Source of the DNA: Ascidia mentula
Lineage: Eukaryota; Chordata; Ascidiacea; Phlebobranchia; Ascidiidae
Assembly (NCBI GenBank): GCA_947561715.1
Contig: OX387198.1
Span: 2,294,001 to 2,358,000 of the forward strand
Reading direction: 5' to 3'
Length of the DNA stretch: 64,000 nucleotides
Shown one piece after another: positions 9,701 through 55,893 of this stretch (position 1 is the stretch's first letter; every line of letters begins with the position of its first letter). The position numbers and the translations under genes were made by a program. Under the pieces are notes generated by a model, which saw only the letters and a list, made by a program, of their open reading frames with translations, searched no databases and was not told the DNA's origin.

Positions 9701-12700
9701 GAATCCTATAATGGAAATAAGCCTGGTCGTTCTCATAGGTTAGTTACCACATAAGGCATTTTTACTATTCAACATGCACGAAAATCTTTACTTAGGATTT
9801 TTGACACGCAATAAAAAACGACGGCCTGAACAATAAAGATAAAAATCTGCATTATCAAAAGCCTTAACTTTCAAGTTCCTTATCGCCAATTTAATCCACA
9901 TGCTAGATATGTATAATTTTTGCGAGCCCCATCAGAGCACTTAATCTACTAAGTTAATTTTTGGCATAAGCTTAAATAATGAAAACTACTTCCATCCACA
10001 TGTCATTGTGTACATATTTGAAGAGTTATAAATTTCTTTTTTGTGTAGATTCTACTTTCTGTAATGGTGGAAGTTCCTATAATACTGTCACCAGTGTCCC
10101 ACCCAGAAATGGTTCTTTGATTACCGCTAACCCAACACAACAACATGGGGATACGGTGCAAACTTTACAAACAGGTATTAACTTAAAATTATTAAGCTTA
10201 AAGCCAAAAGTCACACAGAAATGCAAGGAAGAAATTTTCTCCAAAATGGTATATAAAAATATGCAGTGAATTCATTGCAACTTTGTGACACGAAAAAATC
10301 TTTATGTTAATTCATTTGTGCAACACCTTTTCTCATGTCTTTTTTTTAGTGTCATGCAATGAGGCCATCAGTCCATCCTAGCAAATTTGTTAATATCAAA
10401 AACTAAGCGAAGAGTATTGACATGGAAAGATGTTTTTAGTCCCTGTTCACCATCTTTTTTTGTATTGATATGATGTAACATTTATTATGTTTCCAAAAAC
10501 AGAATTCAGTGCAAACCATGTTGAAATTGCCAATAACCCAACAAGCTTTGGTGAATACAAAACAAGCAGTGATATTTCTACGAGGCAATCAGATGCTGCA
10601 ATAGTATTGATGCAACTTTCAGGTAAGTTTTCTTGTAAACAAACACTGATTAGTAAATGTGACAAAAAATTTGACGTTCTTTTGTTTCTTTGGGTTTTTT
10701 TGCACACGAACCTTTATGTGACCCTACCTAGGCCTAAATGTTTTCATTTTTTTTGAAAATCTGTAAAGTCTTGTATCGTATTCACTAGATTGTAAGCCAC
10801 AGCTTGTAAAGTTTTTTAACCTATCGTTTCCGCGGTGTTCAATCGAGGGCAGCTTATATTCGTGGGTGGCTGTGGCTGTGGCTGTGTTTCTCAGTTTCAA
10901 TGAAATTCACCTTTCACTTGCTCTGCCTTACCAATACGTTTTATCAAACGCAGTTATCAGCGTACCTGACAATTTCAATGGACAGATTTGTTGACAATTA
11001 TTGTTATAGGGCACCTAAGGTTGCCTATGACATTTACATGTGGCTTAAATTCGAAGGCGGCTTATATTAACTTTTGATCACCGTCACAATCGATTAAATA
11101 AGGTTGTACATTCTCAAGTCTATTTGGACTAGTTTTTTCACAAAATCACCAACTTGCTTAACACTAACATGACAAAAGTATGAAAATATATTTTTGTGAA
11201 ACCTATTCAAGGTATTGAAGAGCCTGCAACTACTCCCTATAGCCCAAGGTTCACTGAACTATTCAATAGTCAACAAGACAACACTTGGAATATTATCCGG
11301 GGAGCAATACAACAAACAGGTAATTTCACTGTTTATTACAAGCCCATTGATGTACATAACAGAAATGCAAAGTTATATTTTTTAAAATTACAAAACATCA
11401 CCTAGGGTGTAGCTTAGATTTACTTTTGTTTAATCACTTTCAAGGCACTGAACAGCATCAAACCTCTTATGATGTAACCCATAATCAGTTTTCAAGTGAT
11501 GAACAGATAAATGCAGGAAAAGTTGTGCAGGGACGACAACAGCAAACAGGTAATAAAAACAATTTGAAGAAAACTGTATCTGTTGTTGGTAACCCCTAGG
11601 AACAGACTGCTAGCACCCCCTTTTTGACAACTACTAGTATTGAAACATGAATAAGTTGTCATGTAAGAGAAATGTAGGAATACCATTTAACAGAAATGCA
11701 AGCAATGTAAAATGCTTCAAAGAAAGCTGTTGATTATACAGTGGATATAACATTTTATAATTAAATACCACTGTATCGGGAAAAATGAACATTTAGGACT
11801 TTCAAATATCACATATTTCGTGACAAAACATACATGGTTTTACAGCACATTTGTTGTTTTATGACATCACAAATAACGGCATTGACGTGTATATTCTGTG
11901 ATTTTTCACTAAACCTAATCAAAATCCCTTTCTGATAAATTGTAAAACATTAAAAGTACGAAATCTTAAATTTATTTTTCCAATATGTCCCCTTTTTTAA
12001 AAAAATACACGTTTACCACTCTTTAGCGCTACCAAAAAAAATCCCCCGAAACACTGACACTTTGAATAGACCGCCAGGGTATGTGATGGTGGGAGGTTGG
12101 GTTTATTTATGTTTAAATTAAATAAATTGTTTTTATTTCAGATGAAAACATCCAAACTTTTTGGATCCAAACTTACGTGAATTTGTTGAAAAAACATAAA
12201 TATTTGGAAGCAAATGAAACAAGAAACCAACTTTTAAGGTTGCTTGAAGGTCGTTGGGTAACTGAGGAAGTTTTGAGAATAACTGGAGATATAAAGAGAA
12301 GAGAGGGAAAATGTTTGGAATCGATTTTATTTTTCGATGTTGCGTCTGAACTTTATGTCAAATGTGGTGGATGGAAAACGGTGAAAGGTGTGAGGGGATG
12401 TGTTTGGGGTTTGTATCTGACATGCGGAGGTTTGATGAAAACATCGGATTTGAATCAAAAACTTGAAAACAAACGAATAATTAGTGGTTATGTGATCCCA
12501 CTCATGGAAACGATCAGACTCAAAGTGTATTATGTCAAAAACGTGGAAGAAGGATTTAAATGCGACAATCAAGTGTGGTGTTTGCTCGGGATTGGGTTGA
12601 GTCAACGTTTAATCGGAGATTATTCGTCCAGTGAATCAACAATTAATCTTGGACTTGAAATGATGAGAAAACGGTTTGGTGAAAACTCAGCAAAGCATAA

Positions 12701-12902
12701 AGTGTTTGGAATTTTGTTAAGTGACCTTGGTTTGGTTTGCATGAAAACAAATCGACTGAATGAAAGTGTGGATTTTTATAAAGAATCAATCCAAGCTTAC
12801 AGAACGGCAACAGACATAACTGAAGAGAGAAGGGAGGAGTTGATTGAAATGAGTGAAAACAATTTAAGTGAAGTTGAATCAAAACTTGCACAAAGGAAAT
12901 AA
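3741..12902 (+). CDS. Gene 1: TKL/RIPK-like kinase, linker exon array, TPR-like C-terminus
   Basis: Proposed multi-exon gene of about 1084 codons. Exons: 3741-3758, 3867-4036, 4101-4957, 5057-5209, 5395-5496, 5552-5677 (weak), 5961-6047, 6578-6679, 6819-6923, 7395-7478, 8380-8499, 8811-8921, 10049-10174, 10503-10622, 11212-11319, 11445-11549, 12142-12902. Exon edges are AG/GT except where noted, and the joined lengths sum to a multiple of three. The N-terminal kinase head probably phosphorylates Ser/Thr; the middle is a Q/N/T/S-rich linker; the last exon is helical and TPR-like. The start is uncertain because the frame is open upstream of 3741. A candidate polyA signal (aataaa) lies near 13053. 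A paralogous linker and C-terminus occur in gene 3 behind a different head. Confidence 0.75.
3867..4957 (+). CDS. Kinase domain of gene 1 (exons 3867-4036 and 4101-4957)
   Basis: The domain is nearly complete. Numbered from Met 3741, the Gly-rich loop GSGGSG is at 25-30, the VAVK lysine at 47, the alpha-C glutamates at 66-67, the catalytic loop HGDVKPEN from 144, DFG at 164-166, APE at 199-201 and DVYAFGV from 214, followed by a CWDQDPSKRP segment typical of TKL kinases. The catalytic Arg of HRD is Gly here, but Lys, catalytic Asp, Asn and DFG are kept, so activity is plausible. The intron at 4037-4100 is phase 2 and the exon ends in phase 1, matching the linker exons that follow. RIPK/ANKK-like kinases are the closest style; exact orthology cannot be set by eye. 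Confidence 0.85.
5057..6679 (+). CDS. Kinase-proximal linker exons of gene 1
   Basis: Exons 5057-5209, 5395-5496, 5961-6047 and 6578-6679 (51, 34, 29 and 34 codons) are all class 1-1 and open in the shared frame. They encode polar, low-complexity sequence. The 6578-6679 exon has a basic run (SDSKKKKKTNED) that could be a nuclear localisation signal. A further copy of the DSTFCNGGSS-type exon lies at 5552-5677; its frame is intact but the usual GT donor reads TT (cagttgtg), so it may be skipped. Function of the linker is unknown. Confidence 0.65.
6819..8921 (+). CDS. Linker exons of gene 1, first group
   Basis: Exons 6819-6923 (DTEQHPTTS), 7395-7478 (GNTTSAEV), 8380-8499 (DSALNTGEP) and 8811-8921 (GFISVGGN) are each class 1-1, with AG before and GT after, and most end in a Gln-Thr-Gly junction (QQT or PQT plus split Gly). 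Homologues with near-identical introns occur in genes 2 and 3. A fifth member at 7977-8090 has lost its AG acceptor and carries an in-frame stop, so it is a dead exon. Confidence 0.7.
7173..7346 (+). mobile_element. hAT-type MITE, end-truncated
   Basis: Begins agtgtttcccaaccggtagt and matches 26026-26231 closely through ttttacctccaagtg, but lacks the far terminus. The gtttcccaacc end is typical of Charlie-like hAT elements. It sits in the intron before linker exon 7395-7478. Confidence 0.65.
7977..8090 (+). pseudogene. Dead linker exon (DCLDNGES type)
   Basis: Matches the 114-base exons at 27273-27386, 43258-43371 and 50959-51072. Here the acceptor tttag reads tgtaa, and the frame soon meets TAA (ttg gat in the intact copy is ctt aaa taa in context). 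Because the exon is symmetric, its loss does not alter the downstream frame. Confidence 0.7.
8922..10048. other. Long intron of gene 1, conserved in the paralogue
   Basis: No exon or RNA is evident. The sequence recurs at 44203-45319 and 51921-53036 at high identity, so it was copied with the exon array. The open stretch 9501-9743 is shared by the copies but has no splice context and differs among them by replacement changes; I do not treat it as coding. Confidence 0.55.
10049..11549 (+). CDS. Linker exons of gene 1, second group
   Basis: Exons 10049-10174 (DSTFCNGGSS), 10503-10622 (EFSANHVE), 11212-11319 (GIEEPATT) and 11445-11549 (GTEQHQTS) are class 1-1 with good splice edges. Unlike the C-terminal exon, they differ from their gene 3 counterparts by few replacements. 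The 11445 exon is a diverged repeat of 6819-6923 (shared SYEQINAGKVVQ-like core), showing that whole exon cassettes repeat inside the gene. Confidence 0.7.
10770..11075. repeat. Intronic repeat with gtaagccacagc / gcggcttatatt ends
   Basis: A segment between linker exons begins near ttgtaagccacagc and ends near ggcggcttatattaac, giving imperfect inverted ends, and contains a short ggctgt tandem run. Copies sit at the same place in the array at about 46045-46322 and 53765-54050, so it predates the array duplication. Probably an old MITE. Confidence 0.4.
12142..12902 (+). CDS. C-terminal TPR-like exon of gene 1
   Basis: Final exon of about 253 codons after a ttatttcag acceptor, entering in phase 1, ending at TAA 12900-12902. 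Predicted all-helical with TPR-like pairs, for example GDIKRREGKCLESILFFDVA, GLSQRLIGDYSSSEST and LGLVCMKTNRLNESVDFY, the last being the clearest repeat. TPR folds bind protein partners. Compared with the gene 3 exon (55130-55893) it has about 69 amino-acid differences and only about six or seven silent ones by eye, against about 5% difference in flanking non-coding DNA. Confidence 0.75.
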
Positions 12903-15025: not shown

Positions 15026-15951
15026 TTGCATTGCAAAGTAATTTTTTGTATGTTCCGCGTCTTAGTGGTGAAAGATTTTTGGAAAACACGACTTTCGCCC
15101 TGTTCAAATTCTTCCGTAACATTGCCACCAATTACAAAATATTCCCTCAATTGTCAATGTTTAATGCTCGCTGTTCGTAGTTTTCTATTTAACATTTGTA
15201 TTTTAAAGGTAATTTAGCAAGCGTTTCAATCAGAACAGGCACCAGTTTAGGTGACAACTAGTATATTCGGCCAATTGTGTCGACTGTAGCTTGTCTATAT
15301 TTTTTGGAGACGGTAGACGAAAGCGCCAATCCTACGTCGTACCAGAGTAACCAACTATTGAAACGTCATGAAGTTAACTCCTGGCGTATGCAAGTGTGTA
15401 GAATTATCGAGTCGCGGCCAAAAATAATCAAAAAATCGACAGGTAGGCCAACAGACCGCATAAGAGAAACAAAAGAATGCAGTTTAATGAATCAACCCAA
15501 CTACATTATTTAATAAAAATTTAAACACTGTAACCGAAAAACAATAAAAAAACATTCAACTGCAGCATGGAGAATTTTCCCAATGACAATAATTTATACC
15601 AAGCCCTGGGGCGACAAATTAAAAAAAAAACGAACCAGGCATTGCCAATATCTGAGATATACATTACGATTGCAACCGTCTTATTTCAGTGTTATGTCCT
15701 CAGCGTTGAAACGTCATCATGGGTTAAGAAGCTCGCGAAAAAAAGTTAGGCAGCGCGTGGAACCCATTGTGTCATCTTTGTTCATTCTGCGACGGGATTT
15801 TGGCCGAAAACATTACGGAAAAGGCTTTTGTTTATTATCTTTGACACCCAGTCTTAGTGTTGATCGAAAGCATCCTGTCGTAATCACCGTAGACGAAGTA
15901 ATGCCTCTTTGTAACGAAAATTCAAACTATATCTGCAGGAAGTTGTGTTAG
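15026..15951 (+). other. Shared open stretches in the downstream block, doubtful coding
   Basis: Plus-strand frames at 15277-15513 (LLKRHEVNSWRMQVC) and 15583-15951 (HHGLRSSRKKVRQR) are preserved in copy B at 57720-57922 and 58107-58388. I recognise no family. In the second frame most A/B differences change the residue, which gives no sign of purifying selection. The first begins after a possible acceptor. They may be remnants of a mobile element or an unknown gene. Confidence 0.25.
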
Positions 15952-16363
15952 CTTTTCAGAAACATGCCAGGCACAGAATTATTGCAGTTTTTCGCTGCTA
16001 CGTTTTTTTAACCCTGAGAAAAATCAGCGAAGAACCGCGGTCTATAGCCTACTGAGCTATCAAACATACATTGCGTTTTGTTCTCCAGTGAAAATTTTGT
16101 GTCCATTTCGTACAATACCATTTTTCACCTTCTCCTCCACCCTCGAAAAAAGCAACTTCAATTAACCTTTGCAAGGATATGCATTGGAACCGCAGTTTCT
16201 ATGAACGTAAAGTCCCTCTCCGTGGCGCGATTTGTTGCAGTTTCCTGTTTAAAAAACCCTCGTCTTCCAGCAAGAGGCATCAGTGTACCGCTGTGTGTAA
16301 ACCGGCAAAATGCACATAAATAACTAAAACCCTAACCAATCCTGTCAATGCGTGATAAATCAA

Positions 16364-16436
16364 GCTCTCGGTAAGGTTTAAACTCACGACCCTGGGCTAA
16401 CCAGGCCCAACGCTCTACCAACTGAGCTCTCAGTGG
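16364..16436 (-). repeat. tRNA-derived repeat (SINE-like), copy 1
   Basis: On the minus strand this shows an A-box-like gctcagttggtagagc, an anticodon-arm-like TGGGC/GCCCA stem and a B-box-like ggtcgtgagtttaaacc with a five-pair T-stem. The acceptor stem does not pair, so it is not a working tRNA. Identical placement at 28372-28444 and 58801-58873 shows all three descend from one insertion copied by segmental duplication. Confidence 0.55.
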
Positions 16437-25311: not shown

Positions 25312-28300
25312 GTATGTTATATTATGTTTTAGGTTTACAGGTTTTACAGCCTATAGCTGTATCAGCCACTTTTTCCTGAAAAGTCCGAGCGAGATTTAAA
25401 AAATCAGTCACTAGACTTCGATATTTTTGCTGTTCGACGCACACGATAATTTTTTTCCCCATGTTCAATCGCAATTACAAAGCAACACCCTGTGTATAAT
25501 GTTAAAGATAATTTAATTACTTTTGAAATGTTTTGTAGAATCTCATGGAAATAAAATGGAAGAGAAAGATATTTCGTGTACATCAACATCTACAAACTCC
25601 TCATCGCTTTGTAAGAAACGAAAACTGTCAACCTCAGAGTCGCAGGTAACAAAATTTTGCTTTATTTCATGTATGTATGTTATTATTTAACTATTTGCCC
25701 TTTTACCAGGAAAACTTTGATCACAACAATACGCATTCAAAGGAATCAAAAACTTATAACTTTTCAAACTTTGGCAATTTTGTGGCAGATACACTTCAAT
25801 CTATGCCCCTTAATTCTGCCTATAAAGCAATGGCCACAATATTACAGTGTTTAGGTGCTCATTGTATGAATACTGAGGAAGTTTCAGGTATGTAAGATTG
25901 TTTTTTTTTTAATATTGATAAAGAAGCACTTTGTTTCAATTATCTCTTTATAAAAGTGTTTTGTAAGTGTGTAACATAAACACTTTTTGCTACAATGTTA
26001 GTAACAGCTTCAGTTGGTTTGTAGTAGTGTTTCCCAACCGGTAGTACCACTAGTGGTTTGCAAAAGCATTCCAGGTCGTATGCGAGCGCCTTTACGTAAT
26101 TTGCGGATATAGTTCAAATTTTAAAAATCGCAAGTGATCAAAAAATGTTTGTTATTTCATCCCCTAGGTTACTTTGTAAATTTGTTTTACCTCCAAGTGG
26201 TACACAACCACAAAAAGGTTGGAAATCACTGGTTTATAGTGTAGAGTAGTGATGTAATGAAGCTTCGGTTTGCCAAATTTATTCCGCGAATCTGCGATTT
26301 CGATGAAGATTCAGTTTTGGCCCAATAATTTGTTTTGATTTGGACAAAACTAAACTTATACGCTCATGAAAACATTGTGAGATACCAACAATAGCATGTG
26401 AACTGTATTAATAATTTCCAATACTTTGAAAGATGATAATATTTTGGGCGCAAATCTTATCTTTTCTGCGTAGTTGTGCATCACACAAAAAAATTAAAAA
26501 ATGGGAGCGATGGTGTTCAATGAAATATTATCGTTGTGCCCATGCCTGGTACAAAATCGTTGATACAACTTGAAAACTATCGCAAAAACTGAATATTTGG
26601 TTTGGACCAGAACCGAATTTGGACGATTCCATGCATCACTAGTGTAGAATGTCAGATTATGGAAATTTTTAAAATTGTGATGTGTTTATTTTATTTAAGG
26701 AAACACATCATCTGCTGAGGTTAACACGGATGGTGCAAAAGAAGAACATGCAGCCACCAGACACAGTCAGCAACATTATGAAGGTACAAACAACATAAAC
26801 ACATATTTTCATGACTAGTGTATGAAGATGCTGATATCAAGTTGCAAAAATACTGTGCAACCCATAATAGCTTCAACATCCACCTAAGACAACACAGAAA
26901 TCATGTATATATACTTTTATATGGTAAGGTAGGACTGCTTGCGGCAAAGACTTCTGTTTGGCGATGTAAAAAATAAGCATGTTTAGTATGAACTAAACAA
27001 GTGTTTTTGATGATGGCAAATAAATGTGGTCGCCTGGCAATTTGTTTGTATTAATGTAACTTGCCTGGGATCTTCAGTTGACACTTCACTGAGATCTATA
27101 AATATATTTCTTATTTAGACTTTTACAAAGCTTAGTTTTAACATTTATATACAATGTATATATGTATATTATACATTGATTGATAGGGCCCAGAAAATAG
27201 TTTGCATTGCCCCAAAAAATGGACACTGTGTAGGTTTTTCCCATTATATTTTTTTGATCTTGTAATGTTTAGATTGCTTGAATAATGGTGAAAGCCTTCA
27301 ACATCCTTTGAATGGGAATGGTCATGCTTTGCGTGTCACTACAGCACAGCAACGTGCACAAACCATACCGCAGAAGCAACAAACAGGTATTTTAAAAGCT
27401 GAAAATACTGTTGTGAAGTTGGCACACTGTTAAATCGTGTAAGTCTGTCCATTTAGCTGGAAACTGTGGGTAGTAGTTTAATGTGGATGAGGCCTGTCGA
27501 TCAAAAAATGTCACTTTCTGCAACTCTATTATCATAAGTGGTTGCATTACTTTTATAATTTTCATTGATATTAGCAAGCGTATTTCTTATCATAATCAAT
27601 GTATAGTGTTAGTTTGCCTCTAAATATTTGTTTGTTTGTACTTTTGCCTCATCCACATTAGTTTGCTTCTCAAATGTAGACACTGCTTTGAACACTGGTG
27701 AACCTGAAAGTTACCACAATTCTGTCAGCGATGCTACAAAAAACTTCATTCCAGCAAATCAATCTTCAGTTAATGGTAATGTTTTACCACCACAAACAGG
27801 TATTTTCCATATGTACTGAAAGGACATTTTGTATCATCAGCCAAATTGAACAACATTAAACCTTACAGATGGTTAACATTGAAAATCATGCCAGCATTAA
27901 CAAGACATGCAAACCGGCTCATTTCAATCTGTGCTTGTTTTTTTTATTTTTGTGTTCACATACACAGATAATATTCCAAAAAAGGAAATTAGCTTATAAG
28001 TTTGTCTGCAAATACAGCTATGTAATTTTTCTAAAGTGTAAGATTCATGTCGATGTTAAATTTGAGTTGTTTTTTTATTTTATGTTTAATGCAGGTTTTA
28101 CTTCAGTGGGCAGAAATTTAAATCTCTTGACTGGAAAAGCAACTCCACCCTCGAAAAAAGCAACTTCAATTATCCTTTGCAAGGATATGCATTGGAACCG
28201 CAGTTTCTATGAACGTAAAGTCCATCTTCGCGGCGCGATTTGTTGCAGTTTCCTGTTTAAAAAACCCTCGTCTTCCAGCAAGAGGCATCAGTATACCGCT

Positions 28301-42180: not shown

Positions 42181-45100
42181 GTATGTAACATCAATAGTTA
42201 TATAATTAGTTCTCTTTCTTTTTGTGAATACATTCATTAATGTGAGGGTTCTTAAACTGGTGGGTGTGAAAGGTTGACATGTATTGGGTGGGGATATAAA
42301 AGATATTGGAATACCTGACTAGCAACCTGTCAGCCATTTATGTTTGGTTTTTCTATGAAAAGGAATTTGTGACAAATCTAAGCAACCCTCAAAAGCTCCT
42401 TTTAATGTCACTTTTATTGCAATGGTAACTGTAATGTGATAATGATCATTACATTGACTCAAGTAGTTCTGGCATTCTGACTAGTTGTTTGTTCATATAA
42501 TATGAATCAAGGATTTAAGGGCATGTGTGTTAAATCCAATTGGATATATTAATAAATAAAGCTATTCTAATAATGTTGTTATTGCTGGACTGGATGAACA
42601 ACAACATACAGGTAGCAAACTATATAGAGCATTAGATCAAGGGAATTTGTAATGTTTCAATACGTTTTTTTTTATTTAAGGAAACACAACATCAGCTGAG
42701 GTTAACACGGATGGTGCAAAAGAAGAACATGCAGCCACCAGACTCAATCAGCAACATTATGAAGGTACAAACAACATAAACACATATTTTCGTGACCAGT
42801 GTATGAAGATACTGATATATAAAGTTACAAAAATACTGTGCAACCCACAGTAGCTTCAACATCCAACTACGACAACACAGAAATCATGTATATATGCTTT
42901 TATATGGGTAGGTAGGATTGCTTGCGGCAAAGACTTCTGTTTGGCGATGTAAAAAATAAACATGTTTAGTGTGTACTAAACAAGTGTTTTTGATGATGGT
43001 AAATAAATGTGGTCGTCTGGCAATTTGTTTGTATTAATGTAACTTGCCTGGGATCTTTAGTTCACACTTCACTGAGATCTATAAATATATTTCTTATTTA
43101 TACTTTTACAAAGCTTAGTTTTAACATTTATATACAATGTATGTATATATGTATATTATACATTGATGATAGGGCCCAGAAAATAATTTGCTTTGCCAAA
43201 AAAATTCGGACACTATATGCTTTTCACATTATATTTTTTTGATATTGTATTGTTTAGATTGCTTGGATAATGGTGAAAGCCTTCAACATCCTTTGAATGG
43301 GAATGGTCATGTTTTGCATTTCACTACAGCACAGCAACGTCCTCAAACCATACCACAGAAGCAACAAACAGGTATTTCAAAAGGTGAAAATAGTATTGTG
43401 AAGTTGGCACACTGTTAAATCGTGTAAGTCTGTCCATTTAGCTGGAAACTGTGGGTAGTAGTTCAGTGTGGATGAGGCCTGTAGATCAAAAAAATGTCAC
43501 TTCCTGCAACTCAATTATCATAAGTGGTTGCATTACTTTTTTGCATTACAATACGAGTTTCATTAAAATAATAGTTATGCAAGTGTATTTCTTATCATAA
43601 TCAATATAATAATTATTGTGTAGTGTTAGTTTGTCTCTAAATATTTTCCTTTCAAATGTAGACACTGCTTTGAACACTGGTGAACCTGAAAGTTACCACA
43701 ATCCTGTCAGCAATGCTACAGAAAACTTCATGCCAGCAAATCAATCTTCAGTTAATGGTAGTGTTTTACCACCACAAACAGGTATTTCACATTGCTGCAT
43801 TTCCATATGTACAGAAAGGACATTTTGTATCATAAGCCAAATTGAACAACGTTAAACCTTACAGTTGGTTAACATTAAAATTCATGCCGGCATAAACAAG
43901 ACATGCAAACCAGCTCATTTCGACCTGTGCTTGTTTGTTTTTTTATTTTTGTGTTCACAGACACAGATAATATTCCAAAAAAGGAAATTAGCTCATAAGT
44001 TTGTCTGCAAATACAGCTATGTAATTTTTCTGAAGTGTAAGATCCATCTTGATTTTAAATTTGAGTTGTTTTTTATTGATGTTTAATGCAGGTTTTACTT
44101 TAGTGGGCAGAAATTTAAATCTCTTGACTGGAAATGATGCCTTTACTGCAAACAACTTAACACAGCAACCACAACTTATGCAATTTCTTCCATCAACAAC
44201 AGGTATTTCTTGGAATCTTGGAAATTTGGCTAGGTGGTAGAAGAAGAAATGAACAATTAAGGCTTAATTTTTGCCTTTTTCGCCATTCTAAGTTTTCGAC
44301 ATGCAAAGCCACTGTTCGACACGGGCGGCGTGAAACAATGTTGGGTTACCGATATTCAGTAACATGAACAGACCAATGCCATTGTCTTTAAAGACCATAA
44401 ATTGAATTACTTTAATAACTTAATTATCGGTCATGCCAATCTTGCAGCATTCACTCATCAATCTTACTAGTTTTCTTTTTTCAATGATTGGCATATAGAT
44501 GCTGGTGGCAAAGTGGTTCAAAAAAATTGGTGCCAGTAGAAGTCATTTAATTGCAAACTGCAAATAACTATTTGGGGAGAAGTTTGTATTTTGAGTCACT
44601 ATTAAACAACAGCATTTACCTGAATAGTTATGTAGTGTTGAAAACTTAATGCAATCATCGTTTGCTATGCCGGGATCCTCATCCAAATTGATTTTGTCTC
44701 TTTAGATGGCTAAATAAATGCAACCGCAATAAATTTTAGACAAAATCCATGTAAACACCAGCCAACACTTGCTTTAACGTTCTGTTATGTTTAAAACTAA
44801 CCATTTACCAAACACGTGCCATGGTTGCAGAACATGTTGCTTTGTTACGAAACAAGTACCGTTTTTTGTTCAATTGGACCTATTTAATGAGACATATCAG
44901 CCTACAACATGCAGGTTATTCTTTTGTTTTGTTGCTATTTCAACATGTATTCTAAACTTATTTAAGTACAAGAATTCTATAATGGAAATAAGCCTGGTCG
45001 TTCTCATAAGTTAGTTACCACATACGGCATTTTTACTATTCAACACGCACGACAATTTTTCTCAAGATGTTTGACACGCAATAAAAATCCGATGCCCTGA

Positions 45101-48100
45101 ACAATAAAGAAAATAATCTGCATTATTAAAAGCCTTAACTTTCAAGTTCCTTATCGCCAATTTAATCCACATGCTAGATATGTATATTTTTTTGTGAGCC
45201 TCATCAGAGCACTTAATCTACAAGTTAATTTTTGGTAAAAGCTTAAATTATAGAAACTACTTCCATCCACATGTCATTGTGTACATATTTGAAGAGTTAT
45301 AAATTTCTTTTTTGTGTAGATTCTACTTTCTGTAATGGTGGAAGTTCCTATAATACTGTCACCAGTGTCCCACCCGGAAATGGTTCTTTGATTACCGCTA
45401 ACCCAACACAACAACATCAGAATACTGTGCAAACTTTACAAACAGGTATTAACTTGAAATTAATAAGCTTAAAGCAAAAAGTCACACAGAAATGCAAGGA
45501 ATAAATTTTCTCCAAAATGGTATAAAAGCATGCAGTGAATTTATTGCAACTTTGTGACACGAAAAAAATGTTAATTCATTTGTGCAACACCTTTTTCTCA
45601 TGTCTCTTTTTTCGTGTCATGCAATGAGGCCATCAGTCCATCGTAGCAAATTTGTTAATATCAAAAACTACACGAAGAGTATTAACATAGAAAGATGTTT
45701 TTAGTCCCTGTTCACCATCTTTTTTTATATTGACGTGATGTAACATTTATTATGTTTCCAAATACAGATTTCAGTGCAAACCATGTTGAAATTCCCAATA
45801 ACCCAACAAGCTTTGGTGAATACAAAACAAGCAGTGATATTTCTACGAGGCAGTCGGATGCTGCAATAGTGTTGATGCAACTTTCCGGTAAGTTTTCTTG
45901 CAAACAAACACTGATTAGTAAATGTGACAAAATTTAACGTTCTTTTGTTTCTTTGTTTTTTTTGCACATGAATCTTTATGTGACCCTACCTAGGCCTAAT
46001 TCTTTTCATTTTTTTGAAAATCTGTAAAGTCTTGTACTGTATTTACTTGATTGTAAGCCACAGCTTGTAAAGTTTTTTAACCTACTGTTTCTGCGGTGAT
46101 CAATCGAGGGCAGCTTATATTCGAGGGTGGCTGTGGCTCTGAGTTTCAATAAAATTCATGTTTAACTTGCTCTGCCTTACCAGTACGTTTTATCAAACAC
46201 AGTTATCAGCGTACCTGACAATTTCAATGGACAGATTTGTTGACAATTATTGTTATAGGGCACCTAAGGTTGCCTATGACATTAACATGTGGCATAAATT
46301 CGAAGGCGGCTTATATTAACTTTTGAACACTGTCACAATTGAATAAATAAGGTTACACACTCTCAAGTTTATTTGCACTAGTTTTTTCACAAAATCACCA
46401 ACTTGCTTAACACTAACATGACAAAAGTATGAAAATATATTTTTGTAAAACCTATTCAAGGTATTGAAGAGCCTGCAACTACTCCTTATAGCCCAAGGTT
46501 CACTGAACTAATAAATAGTCAACAAGTATATACTGGCAATATTATCCAGGGAGCAATACAACAAACAGGTAATTTCATTGTTTATTACAAGCCCATTGAT
46601 TTACATAACACATATGCAAAGTTATATTTTTTTTTGCAAATTTTACTTCTTTCTTCTTCCAGGAAAATCAGCACAACAAAAAAAGCCGACAATCTGTGGA
46701 GTCTAAAACCACTCAACCTCCACAAAAGTTTTCTCCCTTTTGCAATTTGATCTCAGAAAAACTTGAATTGATGCCCACTATTTCTGCCAACAAAGCAAAA
46801 CACGCAATCTTACAGTGTTTGGAGCAATATTGGGGTAATCCTAATGAAGTTTCAGGTATGTAACATCAGTAGTTATATAATTAGTTCTCTTTTTTTTCTA
46901 ATTCATTAAGGATGTGAAAGGTTGACACGTATTGGGTGGGGATATAAAAGATTTTGAAATAACTGACTAGCAACCTGTCAGCAAATTATGTTTGGTTTTT
47001 CTGTGAAAAGAAACTTATAACAAATCTAAGCAAGCCTCAAAAGCTCCTTTTAATGTCACTTTTGTTGCAATGGTAACTGTAATGTGATAATGATCATTAC
47101 TTTGACTTGAGTAGTTCTGGCATTCTGACTAGTTGTTTGTTCATATAATATTAATCAAGGATTTAAGGGCATGTGTGTTAAAACCAATTGGAGATATTGA
47201 TAAATAAAGCTATTCTAATAATGTTGTTTTATAAAGTTGTTTTAATTACAGAAAATGTTATTTCATCTGATGTCACAAAAGAAGTATCAGTTGTTGCTGG
47301 ACTGAATGAACAACAACATACAGGTAGCAAACTATATAGAGCATTAGATTAAGAGAATTTGTAATGTTTCAATACATTTTTTTTTGCTATTGTGATACAA
47401 GTCTTAGCATGTGCGCTCGCTAACGACATAACTTTTTAAAAAACGAAATTGATGGTGTTCAATCAAGTATTATCGTTTTGCCCATGCCCGGTACAGGATC
47501 GTTAATACAACATAAAAACTACCGCAAAAACTGAATATTTGGTTTCAACCAGAACCGAATTTGGACAATTCCATGCATCACTAGTGTAGAATGTCAGATT
47601 ATAGAAATTTTTGAAATTGTGATGTGTTTATTTTGTTTAAGGAAACACAATATCTGCTGAGGTTAACACGGATGATGCAAAAGAAGAACATGCAGCCACC
47701 AGACTCAATCAGCAACAGTATGAAGGTACAAACAACATAAACACATATTTTCGTGACTAGTGTATGATCATACTGATATCAAGTTACAAAAATACTGTGC
47801 AACCCACAATAGCTTCAACAACATAGATAAATGTGGCCGCCTGGCAAATTGTTTATATCAATGTAACTTGCCTAGAATCTTAAGTTCACACTTCACTGAG
47901 ATCTGGATGTTTGTCATTTCTTCTTCAAACTTTTAAAGTTACTTTTACAAAGCTTGGTTGTAACATGTATATACATTGATTTTTAGCGCTCAGAAAATAA
48001 TTTTTTTTGTCGAAAAAAATGGACACTGTGTAGGTTTTTCCCATTATATTTTTTTGATCTTGTAATGTTTATATTGCTTGAATAATGGTGAAAGCCTTCA

Positions 48101-51100
48101 ACATCCTTTAAATGACACTGGTCATGTTTTACATATCACTACAGCCATAGGCGCATAGTTTTCATTTTCCCAAGTGGGGCGGCTATATTATGACGTTATA
48201 ATTTGTTACTATGACGTCATCAAGTATCGAAAAACTGTGTTTGAATTTCAACGCATGAGGCGGATTAGCCAAAAGGGCGGCGTTAACGACGAACGCACGA
48301 GATCGGTCTACGACACAACCAATACGTACCTGTTGGCATATCATACTGCGAGACTGACGTTGCAACAACCGATGTCAGCTACGCAAGCGAATCTAGGTCA
48401 ACATGTTTTTTGTGCGTGGTGCAAGAAACACATTGTTTTAGGTCTTTTTATCTTCGAACGTTACGAATGCGACGAGTTAACATGGTGCGGACAGACGCGC
48501 GTAAAAGCCACTCGTTATCATTTTCAAAAAACCTGGGGGGGGGCGCCGCCCCCCTGCCCCCCCCCCGGACTAGGCGCCTATGACTACAGCACAGCAACGT
48601 GCACAAACCATACCACAGAAGCAACAAACAGGTATTTTAAAAGCTGAAAATAGTATTGTGGTTGGCACACTGTTAAATCGTGTAAGTCTGTCCATTTAGC
48701 TGGAAACTGTGGGTAGTAGTTCAGTGTGGATGAGGCCTGTAGATTAAAAAAATGTCACTTTCTGCAACTCAATTATCATAAGTGGTTGCATTACTTTTTT
48801 GCATTACAATACGAGTTTCATTAAAATAATAGTTATGCAAGTGTATTTCTTATCATAATCAATATAATAATTATTGTGTAGTGTTAGTTTGCCTCTAAAT
48901 ATTTGTTTGTTGTATACTTTTGCCTCTAAATATTTGCTTCTCAAATGTAGACACTGGTAAACCTGAAAGTTACCAGAATTTTATCAGCAATGATACAGAA
49001 AACTTCATGCAAGCAAATCAATCTTCAGTTAATGCTAATGTTTTACCACCACAAACAGGTATTTCACATTGCTGCATTTCTATATGTACAGAAAGGACAT
49101 TTTGTATCATAAGCCAAATTGAACAGCGTTAAACCTTACAGTTGGTTAACATTGAAAATCATGCCAGCATAAACAAGACATGCAAACCAGCTCATTTCAA
49201 TCTGTGCAAAAAAAATCTTAGCACCTATTTTGTTTATTGTTATGTTGCAGGTTATGTTAATTTATGTGTGTGACGCCTTTTTTCTCATGTCTCTTTTTTC
49301 ATGTCATGTGGTCGTCAGGTAATCCAAGCAAGTTGATCCCATTGTGATGTCATAACTAATGTTAACTGTGATTAGGGTATCCTAAATTTTGGAGAAAATT
49401 CCATTATTTTTTGCTGTTATATTTTGGTAAATTGGGGTTGAGCTCTAGAAAGTACGAACATCCGTGTTTGCGCTAATGGAAATGGACACACACATAAATG
49501 GTGGGTTGCGCAATTGCATTACATTATGGAAAACTTGAACGCGAGTTTCTGCATGGCACCATACTTCCCCCCCCCCTCCTCCAGATGGCGCCACTGCCTG
49601 GTGACCATCCTTCATTTTTTTTACCAAACTTTAAATTTAATTTGTGTATGTTTTTTATATATAGAAAAAAATCATTTCGAAACTCTCAATATCCCAACAC
49701 ACTTAGATGAATACGAAACAACCAGTGATATATCTGCAAGGCAGTCTGCAAAAGATACTGAAGAAGTGTTGAAGCAACTTTCCAGTAAGTTTTCTTGTAA
49801 ACAAACACTGATTAGTAGATGTTTGAGACAAAATTAAACCTTGTTTCGTTTTTTTTTTGTACATGAATCTCTATGTGACCCTGCCTGGGTCTAAATCTTT
49901 TCATTTTTTGCAACTTTGTAAAGTCTTGTATACATTTTCAAGTTTATTTGGGACTCGTTTTTCCACAAAGTTACATACATGCTAACTTGCTCAACATTAA
50001 CATGGTAGAAACATGAAAACATATTTTTGTAAAACCTATTCAAGGTCCTGAAGAACGATCAGCCTCTTCTCATAGCTCATCGCTCTCTGAAATATTACAA
50101 TATTTTGATGGGAATATTATCCAGGGAGCAATGCAACCAACAGGTAATTTTATTATTTATTGCAAGCCCCTCAGTCACATAATACAAAAGTAGTTGTAAA
50201 TTTTTTAATTATGAAACAACATCCAAGGTGAAGCTTAGATTTAGTTTTGTTCAATCACTTTCAAGACAATGAACAGCATCCAACCTCCTCTAATGATGTA
50301 ACCCATCATCAGTTTTAACGCTGTGTGTAAGAATTTTTTACTGAAAATAATTTGAATAAACTATACCTGCTGTTGGTATGCTACTGATAGTGGTAAGCAT
50401 TACAAAAGCAAGCAAATACTTACTTTCCTATGCAGGGTTTTTAAGTTAAATTTATGTAACATACTTATTGTCAACCACTTTTTGTAGAAGCCTTTTCCTT
50501 GCCAAATATTTTTCTATTTATAACCACATCTTCAAGATTCAGCCACTCCAAAACCCCTAGGAACTGATTGCTAGCACCCCTTTTTGAAAGCTACTGGTGA
50601 TAAAACAATAATAAAATGTTAAAATGTAGGAATACAATTCAATAGAAGTGTAAGCAATGTGAATTGCTTCAAAGGGAGCTGTTCGTGATATCGTAAATAC
50701 AACTTTCAACAATCAAATACCATTGTATTTAAATATATCTGTGTAAACCAATGAGCAAGTAACAAAAATCTTTCGGGATAAAATGAACATTTAGGACTTC
50801 CAAAATATACATATATGTTTTACAGCACGTTTGTTGTTTTATGACATCACAAATAATGGCATTGACGTGTATATTTTGTGTTTTTCACTAAACCAAATCA
50901 AAATCCCTTTTCTGTTAAATTGAAAAACATTACAGGTAACAAAATCTGTAATGTTTAGATTGCTTGAATATTGGTGAAAGCCTTCAACATCCTTTGAATG
51001 GGAATGATCATGTTTTGCATATCACTACAGCACAGCAACGTGCACAAACCATGCCACAGAAGCAACAAACAGGTATTTTAAAAGCTGAAAATAGTATTGT

Positions 51101-54100
51101 GGTTGGCACACTGTTAAATCGTGTAAGTCTGTCCATTTAGCTGGAAACTGTGGGTAGTAGTTCAGTGTGGATGAGGCCTGTAGATTAAAAAAATGTCACT
51201 TTCTGCAACTCAATTATCATAAGTGGTTGCATTACTTTTTTGCATTACAATACGAGTTTCATTAAAATAATAGTTATGCAAGTGTATTTCTTATCATAAT
51301 CAATATAATAATTATTGTGTAGTGTTAGTTTGCCTCTAAATATTTGTTTGTTGTATACTTTTGCCTCTAAATATTTGCTTCTCAAATGTAGACACTGGTA
51401 AACCTGAAAGTTACCAGAATTTTATCAGCAATGATACAGAAAACTTCATGCAAGCAAATCAATCTTCAGTTAATGCTAATGTTTTACCACCACGAACAGG
51501 TATTTCACATTGCTGCATTTCTATATGTACAGAAAGGACATTTTGTATCATAAGCCAAATTGAACAGCGTTAAACCTTACAGTTGGTTAACATTGAAAAT
51601 CATGCCAGCATAAACAAGACATGCAAACCGGCTCATTTCGATCTGTGCTTGTTTTTTTTTTGTTTTTGTGTTCACACACACAGATAATATTCCAAACAAG
51701 GAATTTAGCTTATAAGTTTGTCTGCAAATACAGCTATGTAATTTTTCTGAAGTGTTTTATCCATCTTGATTTTGAATTTGAATTGTTTTTTATTGAAGTT
51801 TTAATGCAGTTTTTACTTCAGTGGGCAAAAATTTAAATCTCTTGACTGGAAACGATGCCTTTACTGCAAACAACTTAACACAGCAACCACAACTTATGCA
51901 ATTTCTTCCATCAACAACAGGTATTTTAAAAAATCTTGGAAATTTGGCTTGGTGGTAAAAGAAGAAATGAACAATTAAGGCTTAATTTTTGCCTTTTTTG
52001 CCATTCTAAATTTTCGACATGCAAAGCCACTGTTCGACACGGGCGGCGTGAAACAATGTTTAGTTACCGATATTCAGTAACATGAACAGACCAACGCCAT
52101 TGTCTTTAAAGACCATAAATTGAATTACTTTAATAACTTAATTATCTGTCATGCCAATCTTGCAGCATTCACTCATCAATCTTACTAGTTTTCTTTTTTC
52201 AATGATTGGCATGTAGATGCTGGTGGCAAAGTGGTTCAAAAAAATTGGTGCCAGTAGAAGTCATTTAATTGCAAACTGCAAATAATTATTTGGGGAGAAG
52301 TTTGTATTTTGAGTCACTATTAAACAACAGCATTTACCTGAATAGTTATGTAGTGTTGAAAACTTAATGCAATCATCGTTTGCTATGCCGGGATCCTCAT
52401 CCAAATTAATTTTGTCTCTTTAGATGGCTAAATAAATGCAACCGCAATAAATTTTGGACAAAATCCATGTAAACACCAGCCAACACTTGCTTTAACGTTC
52501 TGTTATGTTTAAAACTAACCATTTACCAAACACGTGCCATGGTTGCAGAACATGTTGCTTTGTTACGAAACAAGTACCGTTTTTTGTTCAATTGGACCTA
52601 TTTAATGAGACATATCAGCCTACAACATGCAGGTTATTCTTTTGTTTTGTCGCTATTTCAACATGTATTCTAAAGTTATTTAAGTACAAGAATCCTATAA
52701 TGGAAATAAGCCTGGTCGTTCTCATACGTTAGTTACCACATACGGCATTTTTACTATTCAACATGCACGACAATTTTTCTCAAGATGTTTGACACGCAAT
52801 AAAAATCCGACGCCCTGAACAATAAAGAAAATAATCTGCATTATTAAAAGCCTTAACTTTCATGTTCCTTATCGCCAATTTAATCCACATGCTAGATATG
52901 TATATTTTTTTGTGAGCCTTATCAGAGCACTTAATCTACAAGTTAATTTTTGGTTAAGCTTAAATTATAGAAACTACTTCTATCCACATGTCATTGTATA
53001 CATATTTGAAGAGTTATAAATTTCTTTTTTGTGTAGATTCTACTTTCTGTAATTTTGGAAGTTCTTATAATACTGTCACCAGTGTCCCACCCGGAAATGG
53101 TTCTTTGATTACCGCTAACCCAACACAACAACATCAGAATACTGTGCAAACTTTACAAACAGGTATTAACTTGAAATTATTAAGCTTAAAGCCAAAAGTC
53201 ACACAGAAATGCAAGGAAGAAATTTTCTCCAAAATGGTATAAAAATATGCAGTGAATTCATTGCAACTTTGTGACATGAAAAAAATGTTAATTCATGTGT
53301 GCAACACCTTTTTCTCATGTCTCTTTTTCGTGTCATGCAATGAGGCCATCAGTCCATCCTAGCAAATTTGTTAATATCAAAAACTACACGAAGAGTATTA
53401 ACATAGAAAGATGTTTTTAGTCCCTGTTTACCATCTTTTTTTGTATTGATATGATGTAACATTTATTATGTTTCCAAATACAGAATTCAGTGGAAACCAT
53501 GTTGAAATTCCCAATATCCCAACAAGCTTTGGTGAATACAAAACAAGCAGTGATATTTCTACGAGGCAGTCGGATGCTGCAATAGTGTTGATGCAACTTT
53601 CCGGTAAGTTTTCTTGCAAACAAACACTGATTAGTAAATGTGACAAAATTTAACGTTCTTTTGTTTCTTTGTATTTTTTTGCACATGAATCTTTATGTGA
53701 CCCTACCTAGGCCTAAATCTTTTCATTTTTTTTTGTAAATCTGTAAAGTTTTGTACCGTATTCACTTGATTGTAAGCCACAGCTTGTAAAGTTTTTTAAC
53801 CTATTGTTTCCGCGGTGTTCAATCGAGGGCAGCTTATATTCGAGGGTGGCTGTGGCTGTGGCTGTGGCTGTGGCTCTGAGTTTCAATGAAATTTAACTTT
53901 TACTTGCTCTGCCTTACCAGTACGTTTTATCAAACACAGTTATCAGCTTACCTGACAATTTCAATGGACAGATTTGTTGACAATTATTGTTATAGGGCAC
54001 CTAAGGTTGCCTATGACATTTACATGTGGCTGAAATTCGATATTAACTTTTTAATGCCGTCACAATCGAGTAAATAAAGTTGTACATTCCCAAGTTCATT

Positions 54101-55893
54101 TGGACTAGTTTTTTTTACGAAGTCACCAACTTGCTTAACACAAACATGACAAAAGTATGAAAATATATTTTTGTAAAACCTATTCAAGGTATTGAAGAGC
54201 CTGCAACTACTCCCTATAGCCCAAGGTTCACTGAACTATTGAATAGTCAACAAGTATATACTGGGAATATTATCCAGAGAGCAATGCAACAAACAGGTAA
54301 TTTTATTGTTTATTACAAGCTCATTGATTTACATAACACTAATGCAAAAACAAATGCAATATTTTTTCGAATTACAAAACATCACCAAGTGTGTAGCTTA
54401 GATTTAGTTTTGTTTAATCACTTTCAAGGCACTGAACAGCATCAAACCTCTTATGATGTAACCCATAATCAGTTTTCAAGTGATGAACGGATAAATGCAG
54501 GAAAAGTTGTGCAGGAACAACAGCAAACAGGTACTGAAAACAATTTAAAAAAAACTGTATCTGTTGTTGGTAACCCCTAGGAACAGACTGCTAGCACCCC
54601 CGTTTTGAAAACTACTAGTATTGAAACATGAATGAGTTGCTATGCAAGAGGAATGTAGGAATACCATTTAACAGAAATGCAAGCAATGTAAAATGCTTCA
54701 AAGGGAGCTGTTGATTATACAGTAGATACAACATTTTATAATTAAATACCACTGTATCGGGAAAGTTCGTGAAAAATGAACATTTAGGACTTTCAAATAT
54801 CACATATATCGTGACAAAAACATACATAAGTTTTACATTTGTTGTTTTATGACATCACAAATAACGGCATTGACGTGTATATTCTGTGATTTTTTACTAA
54901 ACCTAATCAAAATTCCTTTTCTGGTAAATCGTAAAACATAAAAGATACGAAATTTTAAATTTCTTTTTCCAAAAGGTCCCCTTTTTAAAAAAATACACGT
55001 TTACCACTCTTTAGCGCCACTAAAAAAATTCCCCCGAAACAGTGACACTTTGAATAGACCGCCAGGGTATGTGATATCGGGAGGTTGGATTTATTTTTGT
55101 TTGAATTAAATAAATTGTTTTTATTTCAGATAAAAACATCGATTCAACGTTTTTGATCCAAACTTACGTGAATTTGTTGGAAATACATAAATATTTTGAA
55201 GCAAATGAAACAAGAAACCAACTTTCAAGGTTGCTTGAAGGTCGTGGGGAAACTGCGGAAGATTTGGAAACAACTGGAGATGAAAAGAGATGGGAGGGAA
55301 AATATTTGGAATCGATTTTATTTCACGATGTTGCGTCTGAACTTTATGTCAAACGTGATGGAGATGAAGCGGCGAAAAGTGTGTGGAGTTGTGTTGGGGG
55401 TTTGTATCTGACATGCGAAGATTTGATGGAAACATCGGATTCGAATCAAAAACTTGAAAACAAACGAATAATTCGTGATCATGTGATCCCACTGATGGAA
55501 ACGATGAGACTCAAAATACAAAATATTAAAAACATGGAAGAAGATATCAGATGTGAGAATCAAGTGTGGTGTTTGCACAGCATTGAATTGAGTCAAGGTT
55601 CAATCGGAGATTATTCGTCGAGGGAATCAACAATTCGACTTGGACTTGAAATGATGAAGAAACAGTTTGGTGAAAACTCAGCAAAGTATCATGTGTTCGG
55701 ACATTTGTTAAACAACCTTGGTTTGGTTTGCATGGAAACAAATCGACTGAATGAAAGTGTAGATTTTTGTCAAAAAGCAATCCAAGCTTTCAGAATGGCA
55801 ACAGACATTAGTGAAGATATAAGGGAGGAGTGCATTGAAGAAAGTGAAAACAATTTAAGTGTTGTTGAATCAAAACTTGCACGAAGGAAATAA
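40127..55893 (+). CDS. Gene 3: MADF-BESS head, long linker array, TPR-like C-terminus
   Basis: Exons: 40127-40265, 41168-41327, 41713-41759, 41839-41933, 41988-42180, 42681-42764, 43258-43371, 43662-43781, 44092-44202, 45320-45445, 45768-45887, 46461-46568, 47252-47323, 47642-47725, 48951-49058, 49665-49784, 50045-50143, 50959-51072, 51392-51499, 51810-51920, 53037-53162, 53484-53603, 54189-54296, 54429-54530, 55130-55893. Joined, they give about 1150 codons in one frame. The BESS-like copy at 46663-46855 is left out because its phase would break the frame. The head predicts DNA binding, the tail protein binding. The linker contains repeated cassettes, so internal duplication has lengthened it. 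Confidence 0.7.
42573..42612 (+). pseudogene. Damaged linker exon (ENVISS type), first copy
   Basis: Compared with the intact exon at 47252-47323, about 60 bases covering the acceptor and the exon start are deleted, leaving only GLDEQQHT-coding sequence and the donor. The intact copy downstream shows the original form. Confidence 0.65.
42681..46568 (+). CDS. Linker exons of gene 3, first cassette
   Basis: Exons 42681-42764, 43258-43371, 43662-43781, 44092-44202, 45320-45445, 45768-45887 and 46461-46568 follow the same order as gene 1 (GNTTSAEV, DCLDNGES, DTALNTGEP, GFTLVGRN, DSTFCNGG, DFSANHVE, GIEEPATT). All are class 1-1 with intact edges, and introns are near-identical to gene 1. Confidence 0.7.
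46663..46855 (+). pseudogene. Duplicated BESS-like exon inside the linker array
   Basis: 193 bases, same length as 41988-42180 and open in its own frame. It enters in phase 0, whereas the preceding linker exons end in phase 1; splicing to it would reach a stop within about 15 codons. It must be skipped, or begin another transcript, or be a by-product of the duplication that copied about 41990-42660 to 46630-47390. Confidence 0.65.
47252..50143 (+). CDS. Linker exons of gene 3, second cassette
   Basis: Exons 47252-47323 (ENVISSDV), 47642-47725 (GNTISAEV), 48951-49058 (DTGKPES), 49665-49784 (EKNHFETL) and 50045-50143 (GPEERSAS) are class 1-1. The last two are clearly diverged versions of the DFSANHVE and GIEEPATT types. 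The cassette has lost some members: the DCLDNGES-type exon is broken by a MITE and a GTEQ-type exon at 50263-50317 ends in a stop. Confidence 0.6.
47394..47582 (+). mobile_element. Truncated hAT-like MITE
   Basis: Matches the 3' half of 26247-26641, ending ccatgcatcacta with the same gtgtagaa flank; the 5' half is missing. Confidence 0.7.
48072..48631 (+). pseudogene. Linker exon split by a MITE
   Basis: A DCLDNGES-type exon whose acceptor reads tttat instead of tttag and whose body is split by the element at 48145-48582. The donor (caacaaacag/gtatt) remains. Not usable as the usual exon. Confidence 0.75.
48145..48582 (+). mobile_element. MITE with cataggcgc ends, inserted in an exon
   Basis: About 438 bases bounded by ccataggcgcatag and ctaggcgcctatg (inverted ends) with actacag on both sides as a 7-base target duplication. 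Near the right end is a GC-rich gggggggcgcc/ggcgccgccccc tract. The 157-codon frame crossing it looks accidental. It is absent from the paralogous exons, so it is a recent insertion. Confidence 0.8.
50263..50317 (+). pseudogene. Truncated GTEQ-type linker exon
   Basis: Starts like 11445-11549 after ctttcaag, then meets TAA after about 18 codons and lacks the second half and the donor. Confidence 0.6.
50959..54530 (+). CDS. Linker exons of gene 3, third cassette
   Basis: Exons 50959-51072, 51392-51499, 51810-51920, 53037-53162, 53484-53603, 54189-54296 and 54429-54530 repeat the standard order up to GTEQHQTS. 51075-51600 is nearly identical to 48640-49190, and 51921-53603 to 44203-45887, marking recent duplication. 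All are class 1-1; the 51810 exon has gcag/tttt instead of gcag/gttt, changing Gly to Val at the join. Confidence 0.7.
55130..55893 (+). CDS. C-terminal TPR-like exon of gene 3
   Basis: About 254 codons after ttatttcag, phase 1 in, ending TAA. The most TPR-like part reads LGLVCMETNRLNESVDFC, with upstream helix pairs such as GDYSSRESTIRLGLEMM. Differences from gene 1 cluster in stretches like RGETAEDLETT and KRDGDEAAKSVWSCVG, where adjacent codons nearly all change, while blocks such as ENKRII and TNRLNESVDF are unchanged. This mosaic suggests a fixed scaffold with variable surfaces. Confidence 0.75.

Follow-up and report, generated by a model that had tools for sequence, protein, structure and literature searches.

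The 64-kb stretch of Ascidia mentula DNA analysed here (the window; C2:2294001-2358000 of a 195.8-Mb genome) carries two terminal exons, at window positions 12142-12902 (copy 1) and 55130-55893 (copy 2), each of which encodes a domain with a predicted tetratricopeptide repeat (TPR) fold. Both belong to a close group of paralogues, clade A, in which codon analyses support diversifying selection on the TPR domain. The selection, its location on the predicted fold, the constraint on the kinase exons upstream of copy 1 and, by sequence, the anatomy of the gene are supported directly. The reading that fits these results best, with a probability of about 0.6, is that the TPR exons encode the C-terminal sensors of intracellular RIPK/IRAK-like kinase-linker-TPR receptors for non-self, which would form a large, clustered tunicate family.

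Both window exons are open, follow a CAG acceptor and end in an in-frame stop, with an AATAAA at 13054 (copy 1) and 56044 (copy 2). Aligned by codon, the two copies differ at 79 of 252 codons, of which 72 carry replacements and 7 only silent changes, bearing out the first-pass annotation, which had counted about 69 replacement and six or seven silent differences by eye. Its claim that the exon diverges more than its intron and 3' flank, put there at about 5%, also holds: in 250-nt bins the exon is 10 to 18% different, compared to 6 to 9% over 1.2 kb upstream and 2 to 7% over 1.55 kb downstream, bins at the exon edges being mixtures of exon and flank. As to hypermutation with a base bias, the commonest class of difference in the pair makes up 25 of 104. 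The rates for the pair are dN 0.160 and dS 0.122 (ω, or dN/dS, of 1.30) in our own NG86 calculation, 0.162 and 0.116 (ω 1.4) by YN00, and 0.161 and 0.102 (ω 1.6) by maximum likelihood. These ratios are modest because silent sites are few (151 of 756) and 22 codons carry two or three changes. The NG86 codon bootstrap interval for ω, 0.82 to 2.23, spans 1, with dN at or below dS in 121 of 1,000 resamplings, so that the pair by itself is no proof of ω above 1, and pairwise dN/dS was rejected as sole proof of selection. The codon-based check proposed with the original claim thus gave two answers: ω of 1.3 to 1.6, not significant, for the pair, and ω of about 2 with significant site models for 22 paralogues.

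How large is the family from which these paralogues come? A genome search with the copy 2 exon found at least 150 matching exons, fragments and stop-bearing ones included, the list being the best 150 of 289 candidates; a TPR query from another cluster added 16 matches outside the 150, several of them fragments. Clade A comprises 23 full-length exons at C2 2.27-3.05 Mb, both window copies included, of which 22 lack an internal stop. The exon with one internal stop (L024) was excluded from codon work, four partial clade A exons (C2:2279543, 2365877, 2793038, and 2865783) were left out, and 250 of 262 columns were kept after removal of gapped codons.

Of the 231 pairs that the 22 exons form, 229 have a dN above dS. 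At 0.068, mean dS is level with the nearest intron (0.071) and nearest 3' flank (0.069), and mean dN is higher (0.111), indicating that the exon is on average no older than its surroundings and that replacement outpaces neutral change; dS lies above the nearest intron in 119 of 231 pairs. Only the nearest columns (about 420 before and 290 after the exon) were used for these comparisons because the far flanks align poorly, with divergence up to 0.4. The one-ratio model M0 gave ω of about 2, namely 1.955 in an early iqtree log line and 1.99 with our own codon-model code on 22 exons, which reproduces the final iqtree likelihood of -5321.57. Fixing ω at 1 gave a twofold log-likelihood difference (2ΔlnL) of 42.6 against free M0. 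Site models, with branch proportions fixed from M0 and a single common scale left free, yielded 2ΔlnL of 453 (M1a/M2a), 454 (M7/M8), and 456 (M8a/M8), and of 208 and 226 when the exon halves were given their own trees. At a naive empirical Bayes posterior probability above 0.95, 40 of 250 codons are selected. Up to 10 amino acids occur at these sites, with swaps such as Gly/Trp/Lys/Glu; 100 of the 250 gap-free positions have a single amino acid in all 22 exons.

Simulated controls and tree-free statistics point the same way. Neutral M1a simulations with tip labels reshuffled per 25 codons, a recombinant null built for the 22-exon clade only, gave 2ΔlnL of 0 to 13.8 and 0 to 5 false sites in six replicates, and two replicates without recombination gave 2.5 and 0.4. 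The ratio of replacement to silent diversity (πN/πS) in clade A is 1.59, with a codon bootstrap of 1.20 to 2.17 and 0 of 2,000 resamplings at or below 1. Codons picked in clade C have a πN/πS of 2.84 in clade A versus 1.21 elsewhere; those picked in clade A have 2.30 in clade C versus 0.79 elsewhere. Of 243 positions mapped between the clades, selection picks out 40 in A and 30 in C, with 22 shared (Fisher P = 3.4e-14). The diversifying selection proposed by eye from two exons is hence supported by 22 intact paralogues, tree-free statistics, cross-validation between two clades, and simulated controls.

Could the signal be an artifact of relaxed constraint, of pseudogenes, or of gene conversion that carried in an older paralogue's exon? 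Pairwise ω alone is not significant, and flank and exon histories are partly unlinked: the 15 clade A pairs with the most similar introns (0.012 to 0.031) have exon dS of 0.05 to 0.12. An artifact is nonetheless very improbable, since relaxation cannot yield ω above 1, internal stops are absent from 22 of the 23 full-length exons, mean dS is the same as the divergence of the nearest flanks, and the recombinant null stays far under the observed 2ΔlnL. Segments of copy 1 also match clade A best: in 120-nt windows compared with 79 paralogue exons, the best match falls in its own clade in 10 of 11, one of the ten by a close 110 versus 109 identities, and the eleventh is a tie with clades C and D. 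Replacement of the exon by conversion from an older paralogue, which the first-pass annotation had named as a possible refutation, is not supported for copy 1. A separate observation concerns L016 and L023, whose introns differ by 0.012, with an exon dS of 0.073 and a flank divergence of 0.112, suggesting that conversion tracts lie beside the diversifying exons.

The selected site class is not confined to clade A. Other TPR groups were sampled as 15 of 17 group C exons, 10 retrieved group D exons, 9 of 20 retrieved group B exons, and 10 exons of the C69 group, and the M2a gain in 2ΔlnL is 274 in group C (15 exons), 83 in D1 (5 exons), 68 in D2 (5 exons), and 63 in C69 (10 exons), all exceeding the clade A recombinant null. 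One-ratio ω is 1.00 in C, 1.77 in D1, 1.19 in D2, 1.00 in C69, and 0.71 in B1, near or below 1 in several groups, which means that ω above 1 over the whole domain is not general and that it is the selected site class that recurs. Kinase exons have ω of 0.425 (12 from clade A) and 0.351 (8 of 17 from group C), with no significant M2a gain in either sample (2ΔlnL of 4.3 and 4.9, respectively). The first-pass annotation had described the nearby linker exons as showing few changes, which did not stand: in six exons (218 codons) compared between the window copies, pN is 0.071 and pS 0.074, about neutral. These values indicate that the three parts of the gene evolve differently, the kinase being constrained, the linkers about neutral, and the TPR domain diversifying.

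Where do the selected codons lie? AlphaFold2, run on the copy 2 TPR exon with 77 paralogues, predicts 11 helices with a mean predicted local distance difference test score (pLDDT) of 96.4 and a predicted template modeling score (pTM) of 0.92; in the model, tandem helix pairs stack into a TPR-like superhelix. The best Foldseek matches are LGN/Pins, kinesin light chain (KLC), and 14-3-3, and in the LGN/Pins and KLC chains the query TM-score is mostly about 0.5 to 0.6, with a root mean square deviation of 5.6 to 10.7 and 10 to 18% identity. The Pfam TPR models fall below their cutoffs for both window exons, which counts against the TPR label, as does the 14-3-3 match. Placing the variable codons on a predicted structure, a step proposed in the first-pass annotation, put 29 of the 40 selected codons in the A (odd-numbered) helices, which account for 109 of the 250 codons (Fisher P = 9e-5). 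In a test limited to the six helices with three or more selected sites, the selected codons of helices 5, 7, 9, and 11 gather on a single face (uncorrected P of 0.005 to 0.03). The A helices of TPR proteins line a concave groove, in which LGN and kinesin light chain bind peptides. On the predicted model, the selected residues therefore mark a probable binding groove.

The gene that ends in copy 1 (gene 1) was modeled from sequence alone on the forward strand as 16 exons at 3741-12902, open throughout and encoding 1,039 amino acids: three kinase exons, twelve phase 1-1 linkers, and a terminal TPR exon that holds the whole 253-residue domain. Its first coding exon (MSSVEE, 3741-3758) is the sole match in the window at up to three mismatches. 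The kinase N-lobe is encoded at 3867-4036 (Pfam Pkinase, E = 5e-39 over the model) and the main part at 4101-4957, the exon measured for constraint among the 12 clade A paralogues, in which HGDVKPEN and DFG are seen by eye. The linkers, with boundaries set by eye, lie at 5057-5209, 5395-5496, 5961-6047, 6578-6679 (with a lysine run that by eye is a possible nuclear signal), 6819-6923, and 7395-7478 from the gene model, and at 8380-8499, 8823-8921, 10049-10174, 10503-10622, 11212-11319, and 11445-11549, the last before TPR copy 1, from the gene model and comparison of the copies. A linker copy near 7986 was omitted, its acceptor by eye not being AG. On the same strand, copy 2 is preceded by linkers at 50959-51072 (sequence match), 51392-51499, 51822-51920, and 53037-53162 (comparison of the copies), and 54429-54530 (the last before TPR copy 2, with coordinates read by eye; it is the counterpart of 11445-11549). 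Within the window, copy 2 has no first exon resembling 3741-3758 at up to three mismatches and, among the matches listed, no kinase match of its own.

The best match of the gene 1 kinase in PDB is RIPK1 (E = 6.5e-22), with TAK1, RIPK2, MLKL, and IRAK4 close behind; on this ranking of PDB matches, the kinase is assigned only as RIPK/IRAK/TKL-like. By eye, the VAIK-type lysine, HxD, and DFG are present, with HGD replacing HRD. Death, CARD, RHIM, NACHT, and NB-ARC domains were not found by Pfam in the gene 1 model.

Several other features of the window were observed around these genes. A degenerate copy of the linker exon at 10049-10174, by eye without a good donor, lies at 5556-5701, and further linker blocks without a TPR exon occupy 26494-28137 and 42666-50316. 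The segments 48576-49207 and 51017-51648 are 99% identical, indicative of a very recent copy or conversion. Between the TPR units, an open reading frame (ORF) at 33769-34245 matches DUF7041 (E = 1.1e-23) and by eye is retroelement gag-like. A tandem array with a period of 195 and 3.8 copies fills 1-729, from the window start.

The kinase and TPR exons were placed on an order map covering 89 of 135 kinase rows and the best 150 of 289 TPR matches; the 46 kinase rows off the map are chiefly on C1, C70, and C52, with single ones on C2, C67, C69, C71, and C72. The proportion of the two parts varies greatly between clusters. At C2 0.98-1.41 Mb, 17 kinases and 17 TPR exons alternate strictly, disrupted and partial copies included. 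This count and those that follow hold among the matches listed. At C69 19.28-19.62 Mb, 23 kinases are accompanied by 24 TPR exons of near-full length, three of which contain a stop, and by fragments. The 27 TPR exons of the clade A region, four of them partial, share it with 12 kinases; 9 of these TPR exons, both window copies among them, sit between two kinases. At C2 2.21-2.256 Mb, one kinase accompanies nine TPR exons, and at C2 2.565-2.728 Mb one kinase precedes 30 TPR exons on one strand; with the kinase of this single-kinase array as query, no second kinase was found there among the 147 matches listed. Two pairs with identical scores are probably very recent duplicates, one of kinases (G000:C2:990791 and 1026119) and one of TPR exons (C2:13795236 and 13867695). 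Additional clusters of related kinases occur at C1 1.95-2.80 Mb, C70 6.77-6.93 Mb, and C52 0.65-0.70 Mb, and these kinases may join other sensors, because no TPR-exon match is listed there.

What are the TPR cassettes that lack a kinase of their own? They are probably used, because they are under the same selection as kinase-adjacent ones, with πN/πS of 1.67 (n = 15) versus 1.52 (n = 7). It is tentatively possible that such orphans are alternative 3' terminal exons of one kinase gene, comparable in principle to Dscam or protocadherin. One kinase before 30 TPR exons and another before nine, 12 kinases to 27 TPR exons in the clade A region with 9 between two kinases, and the similar selection on both kinds of cassette would all fit, as would the acceptor phase, shared by 70 of 80 automatically picked acceptors; of the remaining ten, several appear to be mispicked. 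Two other clusters are, however, one-to-one or nearly so (17 to 17, and 23 to 24 plus fragments on C69), and separate promoters for kinase-less TPR proteins fit equally well. In 79 TPR exons the frame meets a stop at the domain end or up to about 30 residues past it (L024 stops earlier), and the clade A exons share one stop position, with AATAAA within about 250 nt in 18 of 23. The frames of the 16 exons examined in the 30-exon array likewise close no more than about 30 residues past the domain, but in this array, as in other groups outside clade A, a splice donor may lie before the stop. In the array at C2:15.85 Mb, two TPR exons have a linker between them (L110), meaning that multi-TPR proteins are possible, a point against alternative terminal exons. 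For the 30-exon array itself, it is rather unlikely, judging from exon order, that one conserved set of immune-type kinase exons can be joined by splicing to one or another of the many hypervariable terminal TPR exons; if it is, a single cell might produce a sensor of its own from a germline array, which would amount to an innate counterpart of a receptor repertoire. With one kinase ahead of 30 TPR exons, this array allows alternative terminal exons to be tested for directly, and such splicing adds to the explanation of these genes as non-self receptors without excluding it.

Selection in the probable groove, a constrained kinase, clustered copies, and a recurrent selected site class lead us to regard the products as probable intracellular sensors of varied, fast-changing ligands. 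In the mechanism that we propose, a conserved TPR scaffold holds about 40 hypervariable positions, mostly in A helices, and diversifying selection drives paralogues apart at these positions. Each paralogue may then accommodate in its TPR groove a different fast-evolving peptide or protein ligand of pathogen or other non-self origin, and this binding would switch the kinase on, with signaling as in RIPK/IRAK kinases. From the sequences we infer expression, ligand class, kinase activity, signaling, and function alike. The likening of this pattern to immune or allorecognition genes in the first-pass annotation is plausible, and both the RIPK/IRAK-like kinase and the placement of the sites in A helices lend it weight; the role itself we infer.

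A number of results weigh against this explanation. Replacement divergence exceeds that of the nearest intron in 186 of 231 pairs, not in all. With the whole 1.5-kb flanks as aligned, only 120 of 253 pairs show an exon more diverged than the intron, and 70 an exon more diverged than the 3' flank. Copy 1 (L032) has a dS of 0.102 against its clade, above its nearest flanks (0.053 to 0.062). Group B1 (9 exons, one-ratio ω as given above) has a 2ΔlnL of 12.6, within the clade A recombinant-null range of up to 13.8, and cannot be called selected. The other selected codons fall in B helices (8) and loops (3), πN/πS of the loops is also high at 3.4, with few silent changes there, face clustering in helix 3 has a P of 0.07, and helix 10, a B helix, shows none. 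Outside the TPR domain, Pfam detects in gene 1 only kinase families at E up to 0.01 and no immune adaptor domain. Finally, selection to diverge is also compatible with self-recognition or endogenous ligands.

Pathogen or non-self sensing is thus the leading reading, set against two rivals. Tunicates are known for both gamete self-incompatibility and allorecognition, and the selection pattern, copy number, and clustering would fit conspecific recognition equally well. We consider such a role unlikely: recognition by contact needs surface parts, but the protein has an N-terminal kinase and, by eye, no obvious secreted or membrane part, Pfam reports only the kinase outside the TPR domain, and no such TPR gene is among the matches listed in open-licence ascidian and tunicate literature. 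The second rival is ordinary neofunctionalization, in which each TPR cassette has its own endogenous cellular client. TPR structures of LGN and KLC have been solved with Inscuteable, NuMA, and JIP3, in keeping with such clients. Nevertheless, a given position may carry as many as 10 different amino acids, with exchanges among Gly, Trp, Lys, and Glu as examples, and clades A and C reuse the same positions, a pattern that suits a continuing arms race better than settled specificities; paralogue-specific clients therefore appear improbable. Tunicates form the sister group of vertebrates, and it has long been asked what takes the place of a receptor repertoire in these animals. With at least 150 matching TPR exons (fragments included), a clade A ω of about 2, a constrained kinase, and selected sites in A helices, the putative non-self receptors described here are a concrete and testable candidate for such a repertoire.

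Homologues of the TPR exon are two Phallusia mammillata fragments, 52% and 50% identical, and a search with a 77-row TPR profile gave 9 matches, both of these fragments and seven others at 30 to 39%. A joined kinase and TPR query returned 37 kinases at 22 to 35% identity, several of them kinase-TPR proteins, bacterial ones included; no match named as an animal protein was found among the best 7,997 candidates by shared words. In the same genome, a CesA-like ORF (C71:8044065, E = 7.8e-5) is followed by a GH6 match (C71:8046784, E = 9.2e-6) on one strand, with 2.3 kb between the two, both being weak matches. Fusion of CesA with GH6 is a hallmark of tunicates, and this pair and the Phallusia homologues very probably mark the genome as that of a tunicate.

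In the open-licence full-text literature, no chordate family of this size combining a RIPK/IRAK-like kinase with hypervariable TPRs was found among the matches listed. PMC11378527 describes brown-algal LRR-ROCO genes with diversifying selection (M1/M2 and M7/M8) at concave-side codons and alternatively spliced repeat exons, presents NB-ARC-TPR genes as a sister case of exon shuffling, and regards both families as candidate immune receptors. The sea squirt genes resemble both in fusing a repeat sensor to a signaling domain, and they differ from LRR-ROCO, as described there with one LRR motif per exon and a ROC-COR part, in that the whole TPR domain is a single terminal exon. Unlike brown-algal NB-ARC-TPR, the chordate gene model shows no NB-ARC by Pfam and has its TPR domain joined to a RIPK/IRAK-like kinase instead. 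Brown-algal NB-ARC-TPR genes carry one TPR per exon. According to PMC10197012 and PMC12881547, NLRs, fungal ones in particular, have C-terminal superstructure-forming repeats (TPR included), positively selected surface residues, and large families, and the sea squirt family shares the C-terminal repeat sensor, the positively selected residues, and the large size; it differs in that neither NACHT nor NB-ARC was found by Pfam in the gene model. IFITs are, according to PMC6930875, vertebrate TPR antiviral proteins with four human genes and no known enzymatic activity. The likeness lies in the TPRs, the immune role being that of IFITs (PMC6930875), and the sea squirt protein differs in having an enzymatic domain, the kinase that precedes the TPR. 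The overall TPR fold is shared with LGN/Pins and kinesin light chain at 10 to 18% identity only. To our knowledge, LGN/Pins and kinesin light chain form no hypervariable family. RIPK1, RIPK2, IRAK4, and MLKL have the nearest solved kinase domains, with the lysine, HxD, and DFG in common by eye, but the sea squirt model is without death, CARD, or RHIM by Pfam, has HGD for HRD, and ends in a TPR domain. Hypervariable repeat sensors joined to a signaling domain are thus already known, and by comparison with these systems the RIPK/IRAK-like kinase-TPR version in a chordate appears to be new.

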